A DNA stretch of 64,000 nucleotides from Antarctobacter heliothermus (GTDB lineage Bacteria > Pseudomonadota > Alphaproteobacteria > Rhodobacterales > Rhodobacteraceae), in assembly GCF_002237555.1 (NCBI RefSeq), contig NZ_CP022540.1:3167001-3231000 (forward strand). The letters run 5' to 3'. The translations under genes and the position numbers were made by a program. Positions 35,972 to 44,003 of this stretch are shown in pieces; the first letter of the stretch is position 1; each line of letters opens with the position of its first letter. The notes under the pieces are model-generated. The model saw nothing but the letters and a program-made list of their open reading frames with translations. It had not been told where the DNA came from and ran no database searches.

Positions 35972-37129
35972 TTAACGCCCCTGGATCCTGACCGAAAAGC
36001 TGCGTCTGGCGCCTTGGGGTGGTTTGGGGAAGGGGCCTGCACCGCGCACAAGGCGAACGGCAGCGCTGTCCAGCGCGGAAGAGCCAGAGCTTTGCGCCAG
36101 CGAGACCGAGGCCAGCCCGCCACCAGAACTGATGGAAAAGGTGACAACGGCCGTCCCGCGCGCGGATATGTTTGGTTTGCCCGCGCGCGACAGCCTGCGC
36201 ATGACGAGACCGGGATAGTTGCTGGCCGCTGCGTTACCTGCCTCTTTTGTCCGGCCTCCACTGCCGCTTTGGCGGGCGGTGGCGGCGGCTTTGCCGGTGG
36301 TTGAACCGGCGCGGGCATTGTGGGGCGCACCGCCTTGCGGTTGCTTGGTGGGGGTCTTGGCTTGTTTGACCGGTTTGGGTTTCGGGGCCGGTTTATGGGC
36401 TTTCTCAAACTCAGTGCTGCGTTGTTTGGGCCGCAGTGACCGCGTCACCGCCGCACTCTCGGGGGCCTTGGACGACAGCTTTTCGGGGAGAACCTCGGCG
36501 TGCGGTGTTGCGCTTTCCGGGCGAACCGCCGTCGCGCTTTCTGGCTTGGTCGGAACCGGCGCGCTTTTGGGCGCGGCGGCGGTGACAGTTGCGGGCGCGA
36601 CGGGGCTAGCCGCCTTTGGGGCCATAGGTTTGACCGTCTTGGGCGTTGTTTGGTCGGCCCGTTCTGGCGGGAGAGGTTTTGCGATCTCTGCCGCGTTTCG
36701 TGCCAATGTCCCGTCGGCCATGTCCGGGGCGAGCGCCACGGGCGACACCTGCTCTGCCGCCTCGGGCGGCGGGGTGGTTGTGACGGTTTCCGGCCGGTCT
36801 GGGGTGACAGGATTCGCAAGCGCAGCGGTCAGACGGTCTGTCGGACGGTCGGGGCGCGCCTCGTCCGGGACGTCGGCAGCCGTGCGATCGGTCTGTTCCG
36901 GCTCTGCCGCCTTGGTGACGTCATCCGGTTGGATGGTATCGGAGGGATCTGGTGTCAGGGTTCCGGCGGCCATGTCCTGAAAGGCATTTCCCAACCGGAC
37001 TTCCACCGCTCCGTCGGCCCCTTCGGTTTTGACCGTTTCGGGCACGGACAGCGCCAGCGCCAAAGCCCCATGCACAGCAATTGCGGTCGACAAGGCAACG
37101 GCTTTGGCTGCCTGCGAAGATCGGATCAT
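35972..37129 (-). CDS. tonB: energy transducer TonB
   Basis: 385 aa inner-membrane-anchored periplasmic protein that transmits proton-motive force to outer-membrane receptors. An N-terminal membrane anchor (AVALSTAIAVHGALALALS), a long Pro/Ala/Lys/Thr-rich spanning region of about 250 residues, and a C-terminal TonB domain (YPGLVMRRLSRAGK...GTAVVTFSISSGG...SALDSAAVRLVRGAGPFPKPP). Four-base overlap with the upstream exbD. Last gene of the exb-ton group; the haem receptor is the obvious client. Confidence 0.92.
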   Translation of the reverse strand: MIRSSQAAKAVALSTAIAVHGALALALSVPETVKTEGADGAVEVRLGNAFQDMAAGTLTPDPSDTIQPDDVTKAAEPEQTDRTAADVPDEARPDRPTDRLTAALANPVTPDRPETVTTTPPPEAAEQVSPVALAPDMADGTLARNAAEIAKPLPPERADQTTPKTVKPMAPKAASPVAPATVTAAAPKSAPVPTKPESATAVRPESATPHAEVLPEKLSSKAPESAAVTRSLRPKQRSTEFEKAHKPAPKPKPVKQAKTPTKQPQGGAPHNARAGSTTGKAAATARQSGSGGRTKEAGNAAASNYPGLVMRRLSRAGKPNISARGTAVVTFSISSGGGLASVSLAQSSGSSALDSAAVRLVRGAGPFPKPPQGARRSFSVRIQGR

Positions 37130-37512
37130 TCCAACCCCCTTTCGGTAACGATAACGACGCGGTCTGCCCCAGCGCTCCGTAGGGCGCGCCCCAGTTCCAC
37201 AAGCGTGCCAGCGGGCAGATCCCGGTCAGGCACAATCCGCGCCCGGTCCCGTGCATCGCTTGGCAATGCTGCCAGAAATTCAGCCGCAGATTCCACGGTT
37301 GCGCCTTTATGTGTCATGCGACCATCCGCATGAACCACCAAGGCATTCGCCGGGGGCGTGCCAGTGATCGACGCGGTGCGCACCAGTGTCAGGGATTTGT
37401 CCAAAGGCGCGGCAAGTGTGCCCGCAACCAAAAAGAAGATCAGCATCAAAAAGACGATATTGATCAGGGCGATGGCTGGTTCGCCTTTCTGGCGGGCGGG
37501 TTTGCGTATCAT
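37126..37512 (-). CDS. exbD: ExbD-family protein lacking the membrane Asp
   Basis: 128 aa with one N-terminal membrane helix and a periplasmic domain, as in ExbD/TolR. The helix reads ALINIVFLMLIFFLVAG: where ExbD proteins carry the proton-translocating Asp (LID), this one has Asn18. Length and fold otherwise look normal. It overlaps both the other exbD and tonB by four bases. It may act as a regulatory or structural partner in a mixed ExbD complex. Confidence 0.88.
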   Translation of the reverse strand: MIRKPARQKGEPAIALINIVFLMLIFFLVAGTLAAPLDKSLTLVRTASITGTPPANALVVHADGRMTHKGATVESAAEFLAALPSDARDRARIVPDRDLPAGTLVELGRALRSAGADRVVIVTERGLE

Positions 37513-37889
37513 GTTGCCTCCAACACCGTTACCTGAAGATCGGCAATTTCCCTTAGCACCGACAGCAAATCCGTAAGACGTTGCGCCGTGACATCGCCGC
37601 CCAAAGACACTAGCACCCCAAGCGGACCATCGCCGCCGCGATGCGCGGCAAGGCTATCAGGCAAATCCTCCAATGCTGCGTCTGAGCCGTTCACGCGCAA
37701 CGCCTGCATCCCCAACGTCACAAAGACAGGCCGATCTGTGCCAGCACTTGTTCCGGCACCCGCAGCTGCCAGATCCACTTCGGCAAATCGGGTAAACGTG
37801 GAGGACAGCATAAAGAACAGCAGCAGCAGAAAGATGACGTCGATCAACGATGTCATCGACAGTTTGCGACGTGGTTTTCGCCTACGCAT
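37509..37889 (-). CDS. exbD: biopolymer transport protein ExbD
   Basis: 126 aa. Basic N-terminus (MRRRKPRRK), one membrane helix with the essential Asp17 (MTSLIDVIFLLLLFFML) and a periplasmic domain. The start at 37889 overlaps the exbB stop by eight bases and is preferred to a longer frame that would add 31 arginine-rich residues before the usual N-terminus. This is the canonical proton-conducting ExbD of the cluster. Confidence 0.92.
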   Translation of the reverse strand: MRRRKPRRKLSMTSLIDVIFLLLLFFMLSSTFTRFAEVDLAAAGAGTSAGTDRPVFVTLGMQALRVNGSDAALEDLPDSLAAHRGGDGPLGVLVSLGGDVTAQRLTDLLSVLREIADLQVTVLEAT

Positions 37890-38532
37890 GGGCGGGTTCT
37901 GCGGCAAACGTCTGCGCCGGTGTCGCCCCGGTGGGCGCAAGCACCGTGCGCAGTGCTTTATGTGCCAAAACGCGGTCTGCATCCATGCGCGATTCCAGCC
38001 AGCTGAGCACGACAGAGGTGGGCATGGCGACGGCCAGCCCGACCGCCGTGGTCATCAACGCGACCCAGATCCCGCCCGCAAGGATGGAGGGATCCACCTG
38101 CGCGCCTGCCTCTTGTAGTGCTTGAAATGCCGAAATCATGCCAAGAACGGTTCCGAACAACCCAAGCAACGGGGCCAGCTGCGCGACGGAATCGAGCAAT
38201 CGAAACCCGCGTTCAAGCTGTGCAAAACGCGTTTCTGCCTCGGCTTCCAGCCGGTCTGCGTCGGTCTGGCCCTCAACCGCCATGGTGATCACCGGCACCA
38301 GATAGCTGCGCGAACGGTCGAGATAGTTGCGGGCACCCGCCCTGTCGCCCGCGTCCCATGCAGCGATGGCCTGCCGCAAGGCCTTGTGCCTGCCGACACC
38401 CGCGGCGGCGAACTGCCACAGTTTATACAGGACCACAGTTGCAACCAGAACGGACAAGGCCACCAGCAGCAAGACAACCGGGCCGCCAAGCTCGGCGATG
38501 CGCAGAACAGCGTCTTGAAGCGTGGCAATCAT
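37882..38532 (-). CDS. exbB: MotA/TolQ/ExbB proton channel family protein
   Basis: 216 aa with three membrane helices. The conserved threonine-containing helices are present (LLGLFGTVLGMISAFQAL and GIWVALMTTAVGLAVAMP). Forms the pentameric scaffold around ExbD helices and energises TonB. The start overlaps the stop of the secreted 144 aa protein by four bases, so that protein belongs to the same unit. Confidence 0.93.
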   Translation of the reverse strand: MIATLQDAVLRIAELGGPVVLLLVALSVLVATVVLYKLWQFAAAGVGRHKALRQAIAAWDAGDRAGARNYLDRSRSYLVPVITMAVEGQTDADRLEAEAETRFAQLERGFRLLDSVAQLAPLLGLFGTVLGMISAFQALQEAGAQVDPSILAGGIWVALMTTAVGLAVAMPTSVVLSWLESRMDADRVLAHKALRTVLAPTGATPAQTFAAEPAHA

Positions 38533-38963
38533 CCCAGCACCTCAACGTCGGTGCGGCTGCGCAACTCCAATCCATCGGTGCAGGCCGCTGCGGGAATTCC
38601 GTCCCCGGTGCAGGTCTCGGCCCCATTGACCAGCAGACGGCCTAGTCCGGCACATGCGAGACCCGTCAGTGTAAACTGCCGGACCCGTGGTCGGGCGGAG
38701 GGCAGGGCACCGAAATCAAACAACGTCAGGCGATCGACGCGGCCTTCGGTGTCGAACAAAACCGCTTCATAGACGGCTTGTTCGATGTCCGTGGGGTGGC
38801 CGTTCTGCACAAGAAAACTGATCCGGCAGGCCCCTTCGATCGGTTCCAGCGCGTTGAGTTCAATTGAAATATGCGCGCCCTGCGCATCCTGAGCAAAACT
38901 GGGCCCGGCCACCGTCGCGGCGGCCAGACACAGGGCACAAGCAAGTTTCGTGTAAGCGGACAT
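38529..38963 (-). CDS. secreted hypothetical protein upstream of exbB
   Basis: 144 aa with a signal peptide (MSAYTKLACALCLAAATVAG, cleavage near SFA-QD). The mature part has four cysteines, probably two disulfides, and a beta-rich pattern. GAGGCTGGGGAA precedes the ATG. I do not recognise the family beyond its position at the head of an exbB-exbD-exbD-tonB unit; a periplasmic accessory role in TonB-dependent uptake is inferred. The 157 bp upstream hold no evident gene and may contain a second promoter. Confidence 0.75.
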   Translation of the reverse strand: MSAYTKLACALCLAAATVAGPSFAQDAQGAHISIELNALEPIEGACRISFLVQNGHPTDIEQAVYEAVLFDTEGRVDRLTLFDFGALPSARPRVRQFTLTGLACAGLGRLLVNGAETCTGDGIPAAACTDGLELRSRTDVEVLG

Positions 38964-39120: not shown

Positions 39121-39435
39121 CTAGGCGTCGATTTTCTGGATCGACTTAAAGCCTTCGAACTTTGGCGCGCCCTCATGCAGCTTACGGGTTTGCCCTGCGC
39201 GAGCGTGGGACGCGCGAAAGGCGTCACTGGTTGTCCAGGCCCGGAAATGCTGTTCGCTTTCCCAAACGGTGTGCGACGCGTACAGAACCCGCCCTTCGTC
39301 CTCTGGGCCTTTGAGCATGTGGAACGCAACAAAGCCTTCCATGTCCGAAAGGCGGCTTTCGCGGGACAGCCACAGTTCTTCGAACTCGGCGGCATTTTCC
39401 AACGGCACAGTGAAACGGTTCATCGCCAGATACAT
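39121..39435 (-). CDS. IsdG-like haem-degrading monooxygenase (ABM superfamily)
   Basis: 104 aa dimeric alpha/beta-barrel protein of the antibiotic-biosynthesis-monooxygenase superfamily. Asn6, Trp67 and His77 fall at the positions of the Asn/Trp/His triad that defines IsdG-type haem oxygenases. With a haem importer directly upstream, opening of the haem ring to release iron is the best guess. The gene begins 11 bp after the ChaN-like gene ends. The triad and context support the call; no assay or homology score is available. Confidence 0.75.
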   Translation of the reverse strand: MYLAMNRFTVPLENAAEFEELWLSRESRLSDMEGFVAFHMLKGPEDEGRVLYASHTVWESEQHFRAWTTSDAFRASHARAGQTRKLHEGAPKFEGFKSIQKIDA

Positions 39436-39446
39436 AAGAAGGTTCC

Positions 39447-40196
39447 TTATTTGGATGTCAGGGAGGCACAGGGATCTTCGCGATCCACTGGCGGGACGAT
39501 TTGGACGTCGTCAAAAGGGGTGTCGCTGGCGGCCTCGACAAAGCCAGTCGCATGGGTTGTCACGTCAGGCGCGGCCAGCGCGATCAGCGCGGGCACAGCC
39601 CAATCGGTGCGCGCGTGGCCATTGCCTGCAATCACGGCAACAGGTGGCCCATAGGTGTTGAGCGCCTCCAGCGCCGCGCGGGCAAACACCGCGTCGCGAT
39701 AGCGTTGCACGTCGACCATTCCGGCCATCATCTCTAACGGCATGGCTTGGCAATGGGCCTCAAATTGCAGGGCCTGACGCGCAGCTTGCTGTTCGTCGGG
39801 CAAGGGCTGATCCAACCCAAATCGGGGTGCATCCGGTCCGAAAAGCGCAGCTGCTCCATCCCCATAAACGGCGCGGACGGCGTCGCGCGGGGCGGCGGCG
39901 CCAATGATCCGCGCGTCGCCGAGCGCATCAAAGATGGGGGCATAGATCGGAAAATCGCGCCACCCGCTGGCCTCCCATGCAGAGGCGATCTGTGTCCGGT
40001 CTGCATCTGCTTTCGCGGCCTCTTCGGCGGTCAGCATTTCAAAGACAACGGCTGTGGGGCGCAGGGCCGTCAGGGCGGCAGCCTGACCCAGATGGGCGTG
40101 TGGATTGTCATGGACCTCACCCAGAATGACGATATCTGCGGTGGGCTGGGCCAAGGCTGGTGTGGCAAGGCATATAAGCAGTGCGGCAAGACGCAT
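39447..40196 (-). CDS. ChaN-like haem-binding protein
   Basis: 249 aa. Short signal peptide (MRLAALLICLATPALA), then the ChaN-type domain: VILGEVHDNPHAHLGQAAAL at the start of the fold, GWRDFPIYAPIF in the middle, VAVIAGNGHARTDWAVP near the end. ChaN-family proteins bind haem at the outer membrane or in the periplasm and are iron-regulated. No lipobox cysteine follows the signal, so this one is probably soluble. It lies 11 bp downstream of hmuV. Confidence 0.82.
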   Translation of the reverse strand: MRLAALLICLATPALAQPTADIVILGEVHDNPHAHLGQAAALTALRPTAVVFEMLTAEEAAKADADRTQIASAWEASGWRDFPIYAPIFDALGDARIIGAAAPRDAVRAVYGDGAAALFGPDAPRFGLDQPLPDEQQAARQALQFEAHCQAMPLEMMAGMVDVQRYRDAVFARAALEALNTYGPPVAVIAGNGHARTDWAVPALIALAAPDVTTHATGFVEAASDTPFDDVQIVPPVDREDPCASLTSK

Positions 40197-40207
40197 TTGC
40201 GTTCCTT

Positions 40208-40993
40208 TCAGACAGTTGCTGCATGCGGCAAGATATAGGGGACACCGGCAGGCGGCGGGTCTGACACCCGCAGGTCACAGCCATAAGCGCGCGACAACGT
40301 CTCGTTCGTCAACACCTCAGCCGGGGGGCCAAAGGCCAACCGGTGTCCTTCGGCCAGTACCGCCACGCGGTCTGCATAGAGTGCGGTCAGGTTCAGATCA
40401 TGCATCACGGCGATCACACCGCCCCCGGCACGGGCAAAGGTTCGGGCGATTTCCATGACTTGCAACTGGTGAGCAATGTCGAGACTGGACACCGGCTCAT
40501 CCAGCAACAGCCAGCGCGGCTCTCCTTTTTCGATCGGCGACCAGACCTGCGCCAGAACGCGGGCCAGCATGACGCGCTGCGCCTCGCCTCCTGACAGTTC
40601 CTGAAAAGTGCGGTCCGCGTAGTGCGCCAGCCCGACCCGTGCCAAAGCCTGCATCGGCACCTCGGGACGGTCGCCAGCGGTGCCCGATTGCAGCCCAAGG
40701 CGCACGACCTCGATGACCGTAAACGTAAAGGCCAGCCGTGAGGCCTGTGGCAGCACGGCGCGTTGCGCCGCCAGTTCCCAGGGCTTCAGCGTCTCAATGT
40801 TGGTTCCATTCAGATGGACCGCGCCACGATAGGGCAGGGAGGCGGTGATGGCCCCAAGCAGGGTCGATTTGCCAGATCCGTTTGGACCGACGATGGCGGT
40901 CAACTCTCCGGCCTGAGCGGTCAGGTCAACGCCGCATAGCGCCTCGCGTTGACCGTAAGAGACGCGGATGCCTTCTGCGCTCAGGGTCTTCAT
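40208..40993 (-). CDS. hmuV: haem ABC transporter ATP-binding protein
   Basis: 261 aa ATPase of the haem importer. Walker A GPNGSGKSTLLG, signature LSGGEAQRVMLAR, Walker B WLLLDEPVSSLD and H-loop VMHDLNLTA are all intact. The YGQREAL segment and IEKGEPRWLLLDEP insertion are typical of HmuV. The start overlaps the hmuU stop by four bases. Confidence 0.95.
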   Translation of the reverse strand: MKTLSAEGIRVSYGQREALCGVDLTAQAGELTAIVGPNGSGKSTLLGAITASLPYRGAVHLNGTNIETLKPWELAAQRAVLPQASRLAFTFTVIEVVRLGLQSGTAGDRPEVPMQALARVGLAHYADRTFQELSGGEAQRVMLARVLAQVWSPIEKGEPRWLLLDEPVSSLDIAHQLQVMEIARTFARAGGGVIAVMHDLNLTALYADRVAVLAEGHRLAFGPPAEVLTNETLSRAYGCDLRVSDPPPAGVPYILPHAATV

Positions 40994-42054
40994 TCAACCA
41001 GCCCCCGACGTTTGAGCAAGATCCAGAGAAAGATCGGAGCGCCCAGCACGGCAGTGACGATGCCGATGGGTAGTTCGGCAGGTGCAATCACCACGCGGGC
41101 GATCACATCCGCAAGGATCAACAGCGTCGCCCCCAGCAGGGCCGAATTCAGCAACAGCGTCCGATGATCCGGCCCAGAGGCCAGTCGCAACAGATGCGGT
41201 ACGACAATGCCGATAAAGCCGATCCCGCCAGAGACCGCGACCGCCGCTCCGGTGGCGCCAGCAACAGACAGGATGGCGATGGATTTCATCCGCTGCACGT
41301 CGATGCCGATATGTGCTGCCGTCGCCTCACCCAAGGCCAAGCCGTTCAATCCGCGCCCCAACATCAGCGCTGTCCCAATCGCGAGCGCGATCATGGGGCC
41401 AGCCGCAAGGACCTTACCCCAGCTTGCCCCGGCCAGAGATCCCAAGCCCCAAAAGGTCAGATCGCGCAACTGCCGGTCATCGGCGATATAGACGAGGATT
41501 CCGGACAGCGCCCCGGCCAGTGCCCCCAGCGCGATCCCCGCCAGCAGCATGGTTGCGACAGAGGTCCGCCCGTGCCGCGTCGACACGCGGTATAGCAGAA
41601 TGGTCGATCCCCAACCGCCTAGAAAGGCCGCAAAGGGCGTCAGTTGATTGCCGGTCATGTCGATCACCCAAGCAGGCAAAAGCGTGCCCAGGACAATGGC
41701 AAGGATCGCGCCCAAACCCGCCCCGGCGCCTACGCCTACAATACCCGGATCAGCCAACGGGTTGCGGAACAACCCCTGCATCGCCGCGCCCGACACCGCC
41801 AGCGCAGCACCCACAAACACACCCATCGCAAGGCGGGGCAGGCGGATGTCGAACAGAACAACACGCTCCATCTGGCTGAGCGCTTGCCCTTGGACCAGTT
41901 TGGCAATCAGCGAAGTCAGCGTCACATCCGTTGCGCCGACCTGCAGGCTGGCGCCGCAGGCCAGCAAAAGGGCCCCCACGAGGGCCCAATGCAATTGGCG
42001 GGCGCGTGTTTGCCGGTCGGATGGCGCGACGTTTACATCGGTCATCGCCGCCAT
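40990..42054 (-). CDS. hmuU: haem ABC transporter permease
   Basis: 354 aa FecCD-family permease with about ten membrane helices. Family markers are RLPRLAMGVFVGAALAVSGAAMQGLFRNPLADPG in sections, GIALGALAGAL, and the ATPase-contact loop GEATAAHIGIDV. A second Met three codons in could also start the protein. It begins 3 bp after the hmuT stop. Moves haem through the inner membrane. Confidence 0.95.
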   Translation of the reverse strand: MAAMTDVNVAPSDRQTRARQLHWALVGALLLACGASLQVGATDVTLTSLIAKLVQGQALSQMERVVLFDIRLPRLAMGVFVGAALAVSGAAMQGLFRNPLADPGIVGVGAGAGLGAILAIVLGTLLPAWVIDMTGNQLTPFAAFLGGWGSTILLYRVSTRHGRTSVATMLLAGIALGALAGALSGILVYIADDRQLRDLTFWGLGSLAGASWGKVLAAGPMIALAIGTALMLGRGLNGLALGEATAAHIGIDVQRMKSIAILSVAGATGAAVAVSGGIGFIGIVVPHLLRLASGPDHRTLLLNSALLGATLLILADVIARVVIAPAELPIGIVTAVLGAPIFLWILLKRRGLVE

Positions 42055-42057
42055 GGG

Positions 42058-42954
42058 TCAGGCTCCATCGCCGTACAGAGCGGCGTTCAGGCTGCGGATG
42101 ACCTCGGCTGTGCGCGGCCCGAACCCCAACATCAACAACCCGTCCATTCGGATCGACGAGCGGGTCTGTGCTGCTGGTGTCAGCTTGATTGCGGGCATGG
42201 CAAACAATTCGTCATCGCTTGCCCCGTGGTCGCCGCCCCGGTCCATCGTCAGGATCACATCCGGCGCCGCAAGGCCAACCGCCTCATCGGTGATTTGCTT
42301 GTAGCCTTCGAACTCTGTCACCGCGTTCACGCCGCCCGCCATGCGGATCAGCGCATCCGCTGCCGTTCCACTGCCAGAGGCATTGATGCGGCCGCCTTGT
42401 GTCGACAGGACAAACAACACACGTTTCTTTTCACTGTCAGGACGGTCAGTATCGGCCAGTGCCGTCGCCATCGCAGTTTCAATCTCGGCGGCAAGGCCAT
42501 CAGCACGCTCTGGTACGCCAAGAGCGTCGCCAACGATTTCAATCTTCTGCAAGATACCTTCGGTGGTGAATGCGTCAGGCACTTCGACAAAGTTCACATT
42601 TGCAGCGCGGATCACGTCAAGCGCCTCGGGCGGGCCGGCACCTTCTTCCGACAGGATCAGGCTGGGTCCGACTGACAAAACCCCCTCAGGCGACAAGGCG
42701 CGCATATAGCCCACATCGGGCAAGTTGGTGACGTCGGGCGGATAGGTCGATGTGGTGTCGCGTGCCTTCAAACGGTGCTGTTGGCCAAGAGCCACCACGA
42801 TTTCCGTCACGGACCCACCGATGGACAGGACATCCGCATGAGGATTTTGAATGTCGGCGCTTTGCTGGGCGCTGACGGTCAGGGCGACAAACGCCCCGAA
42901 CATAGCTGTCATCAGCCCCATGGTGGCCGGTTTGGGTGTACGTCGGGATGTCAT
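42058..42954 (-). CDS. hmuT: haem-binding periplasmic protein
   Basis: 298 aa cluster-III binding protein. The N-terminal signal/anchor is LMTAMFGAFVALTVSAQQ. The domain starts VLSIGGSVTEIVVALGQQHRL, with LPDVGYMRALSPEGVLSV containing the tyrosine expected to ligate haem iron. Conserved LSTQGGRINASGSGTAADA follows. Four-base overlap with hmuS. Confidence 0.93.
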   Translation of the reverse strand: MTSRRTPKPATMGLMTAMFGAFVALTVSAQQSADIQNPHADVLSIGGSVTEIVVALGQQHRLKARDTTSTYPPDVTNLPDVGYMRALSPEGVLSVGPSLILSEEGAGPPEALDVIRAANVNFVEVPDAFTTEGILQKIEIVGDALGVPERADGLAAEIETAMATALADTDRPDSEKKRVLFVLSTQGGRINASGSGTAADALIRMAGGVNAVTEFEGYKQITDEAVGLAAPDVILTMDRGGDHGASDDELFAMPAIKLTPAAQTRSSIRMDGLLMLGFGPRTAEVIRSLNAALYGDGA

Positions 42955-44003
42955 GCCGGCACCTGCTCAAGCTCGGGCAGGGCGTCGACAATGGCACGCC
43001 ACGCGGGGCGGGAATCCCGGCCCTCTTTGCCCACGCCAAAGACCTGAAAGATGATCGCGCCATCTGCGTCAAAGGCTTCGACCGACACAGCCGGACCGCG
43101 CTGAGTGGGTTTTTCCACGGCCCAGACCTCGGCCACTTTGTCCAGACGCAGGTGCAGGTTGAACCGGGGGTCCATGACGTTCTGCCAAGGCCCCATGGCG
43201 CGCAAGTTCTTGATCGGCCCGGTGTGGATCTGGATACAGCCACGGTTGCCGACAAAGATCATCACCTCAATTCCCGACGCCTGTACCGCCTGCAGCATCG
43301 CATCAGCGGCATCGGTTGTCAGTTGGCGGACAAAGGGCGCCCCGGCGATCCGATAGGCCCCAAGACGGTTCATCTTCAGCTTGGAACAAAGCCGCAGGAA
43401 TTGATGGGTGTCGGTCAGGCGGGACCATTCTTCGCGCAGTGTATCGACCTTGTCCAAACGGGATTTTGCGCCTTCGACAGGCTTGCGCGGTTCGACGTCC
43501 TGGCCTTCGGACTGGTCGTCGACCGCAAGCTCTGCGACGATTTCGGCCCAGTCATCGTGATTGGATCCATCGCGCAGATGGATCTTGTGCATCGCATCCC
43601 CCGCCGCGTCGAAAATCTGCAAGGACCGGCGCGGACCTTTGTCCGTTTGAGTCTCTACTGCAAAGGCATGAACCCACTGGGACGGAAAGATGCGCAGATC
43701 GATGTCATCGGTCAGTGTCATCGCCGCATGTTCGCCGGGGTGGTAGTTGCCGTAGCTGCCAACCTTTTCATGTACACAGCCCGCGACACGGGTCAGGGCC
43801 ATGACCTCGCCCAGCCGTTCGGCGGCGGGGATGATCTGATCGGGATGCGCTGCGATGCGCGTGACCCCATGTCCGACGCGGGCCGCAACAAGCTGCGCCT
43901 CGGCGATGCCAAGCTGTTCCGCAGCGTCGCGGGCGCGCGTCTTGGGGTTGGCGGTCTCAAACGCGCGAATTTCTGCAGGCGTAGGAATGGGGTGCTCGGT
44001 CAT
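42951..44003 (-). CDS. hmuS: haemin-degrading factor HmuS/HemS
   Basis: 350 aa cytoplasmic protein made of two repeated HemS/ChuS-type domains. VMALTRVAGCVHEKVGSYGN contains the conserved haem-ligand His, and MIFVGNRGCIQIHTGPIKN marks the second half. It receives haem from HmuUV and may deliver or degrade it. The start is the ATG facing hmuR, 204 bp away, so both promoters share the region with the palindrome at 44098. Confidence 0.93.
   Translation of the reverse strand: MTEHPIPTPAEIRAFETANPKTRARDAAEQLGIAEAQLVAARVGHGVTRIAAHPDQIIPAAERLGEVMALTRVAGCVHEKVGSYGNYHPGEHAAMTLTDDIDLRIFPSQWVHAFAVETQTDKGPRRSLQIFDAAGDAMHKIHLRDGSNHDDWAEIVAELAVDDQSEGQDVEPRKPVEGAKSRLDKVDTLREEWSRLTDTHQFLRLCSKLKMNRLGAYRIAGAPFVRQLTTDAADAMLQAVQASGIEVMIFVGNRGCIQIHTGPIKNLRAMGPWQNVMDPRFNLHLRLDKVAEVWAVEKPTQRGPAVSVEAFDADGAIIFQVFGVGKEGRDSRPAWRAIVDALPELEQVPA

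Follow-up and report, generated by a model that had tools for sequence, protein, structure and literature searches.

Tandem ExbD genes with a conserved Asp/Asn pair suggest an asymmetric axle in a family of Ton motors

The locus studied here raises the question of what kind of Ton motor is built when one operon encodes two ExbD proteins and the second carries Asn in place of the membrane aspartate. Known motors consist of five ExbB subunits around two ExbD subunits whose two Asp residues lie mostly in unequal surroundings, and existing models are all said, in the accessible parts of these sources, to share the assumption of a 36-degree step per proton, the Asp residues taking turns (PMC12215075, PMC12905483). 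A conserved Asp/Asn pair challenges models of this kind. The locus lies in a 64,000-nucleotide stretch of the Antarctobacter heliothermus genome, called the window below. The original prediction had described tandem ExbD genes with Asp17 in the first protein and Asn18 in the second, and both open reading frames were indeed present with the motifs as quoted (MTSLIDVIFLLLLFF in ExbD1 and ALINIVFLMLIFF in ExbD2). The features of the locus are as follows.

35972..37129, minus strand: tonB, 385 aa, PF13103 and PF03544 above cut-off, TIGR01352, C-terminal TonB domain
37126..37512, minus strand: exbD2, 128 aa, PF02472 with 42.1 bits, Asn18 codon AAT at 37459-37461
37509..37889, minus strand: exbD1, 126 aa, PF02472 with 47.5 bits, Asp17 codon GAC at 37839-37841
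37882..38532, minus strand: exbB, 216 aa, PF01618 with 97.5 bits, channel threonines T128 and T162
38529..38963, minus strand: small secreted protein, 144 residues, four near-invariant Cys, without Pfam or NCBIfam match
39121-39435, minus strand: hmuQ-like gene, HmuQ with 141.6 bits (cut-off 130)
39447-40196, minus strand: ChaN-like gene, ChaN with 117.9 bits
40208-40993, minus strand: haem ABC ATPase, 318 bits (cut-off 261)
40990-42054, minus strand: permease, assigned from position and sequence only
42058-42954, minus strand: binding protein, Peripla_BP_2 with 91.2 bits
42951-44003, minus strand: hmuS, HemS with 297.4 bits
44199..46232, plus strand, divergent: TonB-dependent outer-membrane receptor, PF00593 and PF07715 above cut-off

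The genes exbB, exbD1, exbD2 and tonB share the minus strand and overlap end to end, by 8 nt (exbB/exbD1), 4 nt (exbD1/exbD2) and 4 nt (exbD2/tonB). The gene for the small secreted protein and the haem uptake genes (39121..44003, minus strand) lie upstream of exbB. A later start of exbD1 at Met12 is possible, and the equivalent Met is the annotated start in Phaeobacter. The PF02472 match spanned positions 3-119 of ExbD1 and positions 10-127 of the 128 in ExbD2 (cut-off 25.4 bits). A weak match (E 0.0027) to the Serratia ExbD structure 7ajq placed Asp17 at Asp25, and the ExbD2 sequence gave only chance matches to solved structures. Asn18 fell into one column with Asp17 in a joint alignment, so that the predicted equivalence of the two positions held. 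The membrane-helix Asp, the proton carrier, is present in ExbD1, and ExbD2 has Asn18 instead. Judged by this residue, ExbD2 is an ExbD homologue but not a proton-carrying ExbD. Against the equivalog models for the ExbD of TonB systems, ExbD1 scored below the cut-offs (31.9 against 152.95 bits for TIGR02803 and 23 against 216 bits for NF008429), and ExbD2 matched neither model.

We read the site in the best 80 of 141 relatives, found by scanning genomes with six peptide words that all lay outside the D/N residue. The D/N pair, whose conservation in relatives had been proposed as a check, was found in the order Asp then Asn at 80 of 80 loci; at one of them (L056) the Asp of the first gene was read by eye, in a motif with Val where the others have Phe. 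The Asn codon was AAC at 65 loci and AAT at 15, and the use of both indicates that synonymous changes have occurred at the site while no amino-acid replacement has lasted. Chance or an assembly or sequencing error behind the Asn is ruled out by its presence throughout these loci with both codons. Asn was likewise found in all of the best 120 of 1183 ExbD2 homologues, the window's own protein among them. Alkalilimnicola is a gammaproteobacterium, and a search from this distant relative returned Asn in 118, Ser in 2 and Asp in none of the best 120 (of 772). The two homologues with Ser (P0160 and P0165) fit a site that may be kept non-acidic. Homologues with Asp at position 18, or an Asn variant confined to this strain, had been named as observations that would speak against the original prediction; no orthologue read in the 80 loci or in the two best-120 lists had Asp, and the Asn extends beyond this strain.

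The mean identity across 81 operons was 0.51 for ExbD1 and 0.56 for ExbD2, and in the helices it was 0.92 and 0.90, respectively. ExbD2 is, by this sequence measure, constrained as much as ExbD1 and not decaying. The possibility that ExbD2 is a decayed copy was rejected with the helix identity of 0.90 versus 0.92 in ExbD1.

The frequency of such pairs was surveyed with PF02472, without selection on the D/N residue, in 61 Rhodobacteraceae-type genomes. This family survey gave 40 tandem pairs and 70 singles among the matches listed, and the 40 clustered pairs comprised 33 Asp/Asn and 7 Asp/Asp. Eleven singles, picked from genomes with more than one single, were opened; seven belonged to further pairs, all D/N, and the remaining four carried Asp. 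Together with the window genome's TolR, which has Asp, 12 of the 70 singles were read. The total for the family survey, among the matches listed, was thus 40 D/N pairs of 47 read, the other 7 being D/D. A class survey with PF02472 covered 66 Alphaproteobacteria, mostly one per family, with the pairs selected by eye from the listing; it gave 14 D/N and 6 D/D among 20 pairs, and all four singles read had Asp. The window genome's two D/N pairs are counted in both surveys. No N/D or N/N pair occurred among those read in either survey (47 and 20).

Searching for the Asn motif with a DNA pattern led to 18 loci beyond the window's genome where an N-type ExbD occurs, always directly behind a D-type one; three of them (L095, L121 and L132) are also counted in the surveys. 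This pattern is noisy in AT-rich genomes, and most of the 60 pattern loci were without ExbD. Among 11 further pattern hits, three had an ExbD pair, all D/N (L199, L201 and L208), and L199 and L201 come from other classes of the phylum. A pattern search requiring Phe four residues after the site gave 23 D/D loci, six of which were the survey's own. Tandems of the same gene order are also found as D/D (7 of the 47 family-survey pairs, 6 of the 20 class-survey pairs, and 17 further pattern-selected loci, all Rhodobacteraceae), which indicates that the two-gene architecture also works with two Asp residues. The Rhodobacteraceae D/D subfamily (L153, L156, L159, L168, L172, L179 and L230-L253, with L241 lacking ExbD and L252 being the same place as L156) has mostly IDV(M/L)LIL in the first gene, with Val at -4, and IDVVFFL in the second. 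L167 (= L235) is intermediate, in that its first gene is of the D/N type and its second carries Asp. Rhodobacteraceae-type operons were also seen in records titled Enemella evansiae (L014, probably mislabelled) and Marinobacter (L006).

A quick tree was built from 115 ExbD proteins over 127 columns with the D/N column removed, and 51 of its 112 inner branches were open. In it, 39 of 40 D/N first genes fell together in one half; the other half took up every one of the 40 second genes and the single ExbD and TolR proteins, and also the one remaining D/N first gene, L214. Constraining the first genes to one clade gave a higher likelihood than the free search, as did constraining the second genes and the Rhodobacteraceae D/D second genes to one clade, these clades having been named after the tree was seen. 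The first and second genes appear to be largely separate lineages, and the tree split and the clade constraints make the first/second split appear to predate the subfamilies. The second genes of the Rhodobacteraceae D/D pairs were nested within the Asn group, a placement that suggests that Asp may have been regained in them. Uniting all Asn rows in one clade was neither required nor rejected (p-AU 0.206), so that the change may also have run the other way. Four residues after the site, Phe was found in 7 of 7 Rhodobacteraceae Asp second genes and Leu in 138 of 138 Asn second genes, a contrast to which the Phe-requiring pattern loci add no support.

We then compared the helices in a set of 145 pairs (138 D/N and 7 D/D), in which haem, survey and Asn-pattern loci are mixed and near relatives are counted separately. 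Three pairs with repeated second genes had been removed from 148, and duplicate loci of the window genome (L081-L085, L088, L089 and L128) were excluded. The filter for this set admits D or N only, and the set was not taken as evidence on the identity of the site. The nine single ExbD/TolR proteins that were read each combined, in one helix, the Asp, Thr/Ser at -4 and an acidic residue between positions -9 and -6. In the D/N pairs these features were divided. Of the 138 first genes, 3 had the acidic residue and 137 had Thr/Ser at -4, whereas of the 138 second genes 136 had the acidic residue and 6 had Thr/Ser. In D/D pairs, the acidic residue was found in 3 of 13 first genes and 13 of 13 second genes, and Thr/Ser at -4 in 7 of 13 and 6 of 13, respectively. 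Since the acidic residue is split alike in the D/D pairs, its split marks gene position and not loss of Asp, and what sets the Asn gene apart is only its loss of Thr/Ser and Asp. The complementary division of the helix in D/N pairs could resemble that of an obligate heterodimer. Furthermore, the divergence of the first and second genes was correlated (r 0.80, with a shuffled maximum of 0.27), and operon inheritance alone could also yield this co-divergence. In 47 of 79 loci, the in-frame ATG closest to the exbD1 stop formed part of an ATGA overlap; such tight exbD1/exbD2 overlaps suggest a near-equal dose of the two proteins.

Our preferred reading, to which we assign a probability of about 0.6, is an obligate ExbD1-ExbD2 heterodimer that would serve as the axle in the ExbB pentamer with a single proton site. 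ExbD1 and ExbD2 would form the two halves of the axle within one pentamer, and the protonatable Asp would be on ExbD1 only, giving one proton site per motor. The other transmembrane helix would come from ExbD2, whose Asn would permanently mimic a protonated Asp, and so would the other periplasmic domain, by which the orientation of bound TonB would be set; one TonB peptide is bound across the ExbD dimer in a known system, according to the available part of PMC10907165. Alternation of two Asp residues in 36-degree steps would be impossible in a D/N motor, and the simplest cycle would use one proton per ExbB subunit, with 72-degree steps and five protons per turn. The asymmetric ExbD dimer of the original prediction survives, with its silent helix as a possibility, as the best reading of what was observed, namely the conserved Asp-then-Asn gene order, strict at every N-type gene read, the largely separate lineages and the divided helix features, and from these we infer the heterodimer, its stoichiometry, the 72-degree step and the fixed TonB orientation. 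That D/N operons represent an old and widespread motor class, with an obligate heterodimeric axle, a single protonation site and five protons per turn in many Alphaproteobacteria and some Ectothiorhodospiraceae, is a wider proposal that we hold tentatively, at somewhat below even odds.

Single-gene ExbD motors are homodimers, and ExbD1 might likewise form the conducting homodimer, with ExbD2 in a separate non-conducting complex or as an exchangeable subunit that throttles proton leak. This arrangement seems unlikely to us, considering that no exchange of first and second roles was seen in any survey pair read, that, of the features joined in a single ExbD/TolR helix, Thr/Ser and Asp are kept by the first gene and the acidic residue by the second, and that the gene overlaps would favour near-equal amounts of both proteins. 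Somewhat less likely still, the second helix could conduct via Glu11, so that the motor would keep two sites. Glu11 lies seven residues ahead of Asn18 and was nearly invariant in 70 aligned ExbD2 proteins, and the strong bias of the acidic residue towards second genes of D/N pairs would suit such a role. However, the nine single Asp-bearing proteins and all D/D second genes have an acidic residue there as well, and a residue that accompanies Asp elsewhere looks unlike a replacement for it.

We give very little credence to the explanation that the Asn has no mechanistic meaning, either through conversion to Asp after translation or through decay of ExbD2. A single transition would turn AAT into GAT, but the Asn was kept at every one of the 80 loci with both codons, two relatives have Ser, and the helix of ExbD2 is nearly as conserved as that of ExbD1. 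In addition, the Asn is followed by Ile or Val, and Asn before these residues is a poor deamidation site. The preferred one-site heterodimer has against it the D/D tandems of the same gene order and the mutants ExbD D25N, which is inactive (PMC11658791), and PomB D24N, which blocks motility (PMC6677748), as given in the portions of these reports at hand, though in the mutants both copies would be altered.

If the heterodimer reading is true, alternation between two aspartates would be unnecessary for a working motor of the ExbD family. A natural D/N motor would be a ready-made test of the alternating-Asp assumption, with D/D sister motors of the family as controls, and in structural work the D/N pair would mark which protomer is which, as homodimers cannot.

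Comparison with the ExbB-ExbD-TonB motor of E. coli and Serratia showed the same pore-threonine ExbB, ExbD family, TonB and operon linkage, and the correspondence of Asp17 to Asp25. However, that motor is described, in the material accessible, with two copies of one Asp-bearing ExbD, in contrast to the two ExbD genes here, one of which has Asp. The AglRQS motor of Myxococcus serves gliding rather than import, and its two MotB-like proteins presumably both carry Asp. It is similar in combining two MotB-like proteins with one channel protein, and whether the two heterodimerise is given as unknown in the part of the source that was available (PMC9389320). Sphingobium SYK-6 has an exbB-exbD-exbD tandem with tonB, as here; unlike here, Asp25 is conserved in its ExbD1, ExbD2 and TolR, and tonB comes first, as far as the consulted sections of the paper go (PMC8599685). 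For the TPH-vWA force transducers, heterologous pairs are predicted within a TolQ-like pentamer, whereas Asp is on each monomer and vWA replaces the ExbD domains, again from a partial source (PMC12204202). Full-text literature searches, which had most subscription papers outside their coverage and gave partial texts, turned up no description of a naturally occurring ExbD pair with Asp and Asn. The D/N pairing is real, conserved and apparently undescribed.

The original prediction had also considered a haem-dedicated Ton system, and this was borne out only in part. Besides the haem genes in the window, relatives of HmuQ, HmuS or ChaN were found in the flanks (within 5 kb) of 50 of 80 loci, and any of six haem-region genes in the flanks of 64 of 80, a looser set that may include other ABC importers. 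A plasmid copy in Phaeobacter inhibens (pP66_c of strain P66) has the same five genes adjoining haem genes. However, the plasmid copy in Marinovum has no annotated haem gene nearby, and the window's genome contains a second exbB-exbD(Asp)-exbD(Asn) operon elsewhere (L086 6599-8939; C1 about 4450598-4452938). The latter sits between mraZ-like and apparent cell-division genes, assigned by eye, and tatD. It ends in a Pro-rich membrane protein of 301 residues with no Pfam match, in which no TonB C-terminal domain was recognised. "Haem-dedicated" is accordingly probably too narrow a description.

In ExbB, Thr was present at both the T128 and T162 positions in all operons aligned (138 of 138 D/N and 7 of 7 D/D). 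By eye, in an alignment to TolQ chains, these residues are equivalent to the E. coli pore threonines Thr148 and Thr181, and the equivalent of Glu176 is V157 in the window and not Glu. This position was V in 94 and E in 35 of the 138 D/N operons, and E in 1 of 7 D/D operons. Several ExbB columns differed between D/N and D/D operons, but the D/D side, with only 7 rows, mostly from one subfamily, is too small for a conclusion. A TonB relative was found at 80 of 80 loci. The window TonB has a short strand, EVRLGNAFQDM, after its membrane helix; this strand may be D-box-like, as it resembles in its place the D-box bound by ExbD dimers (PMC10907165). Just past the membrane helix, the TonB N-termini of these operons had GxxFx(D/E) in 20 of 20 sequences printed; by eye, 7 of the 20 also had a preceding EVRLG like that of the window TonB.

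The gene for the small secreted protein overlaps exbB by 4 nt and was found at 79 of 80 loci, and it also occurred beside D/D tandems. A profile of this protein matched 127 of about 246 loci, a set that also counts repeated copies, short stretches and ExbD-free pattern loci. The protein is a candidate fifth component of these Ton systems and has likely gone unnoticed as a part of them. Wherever a name was visible among its 120 listed relatives, it was that of a hypothetical, uncharacterized or Tat-signal protein.
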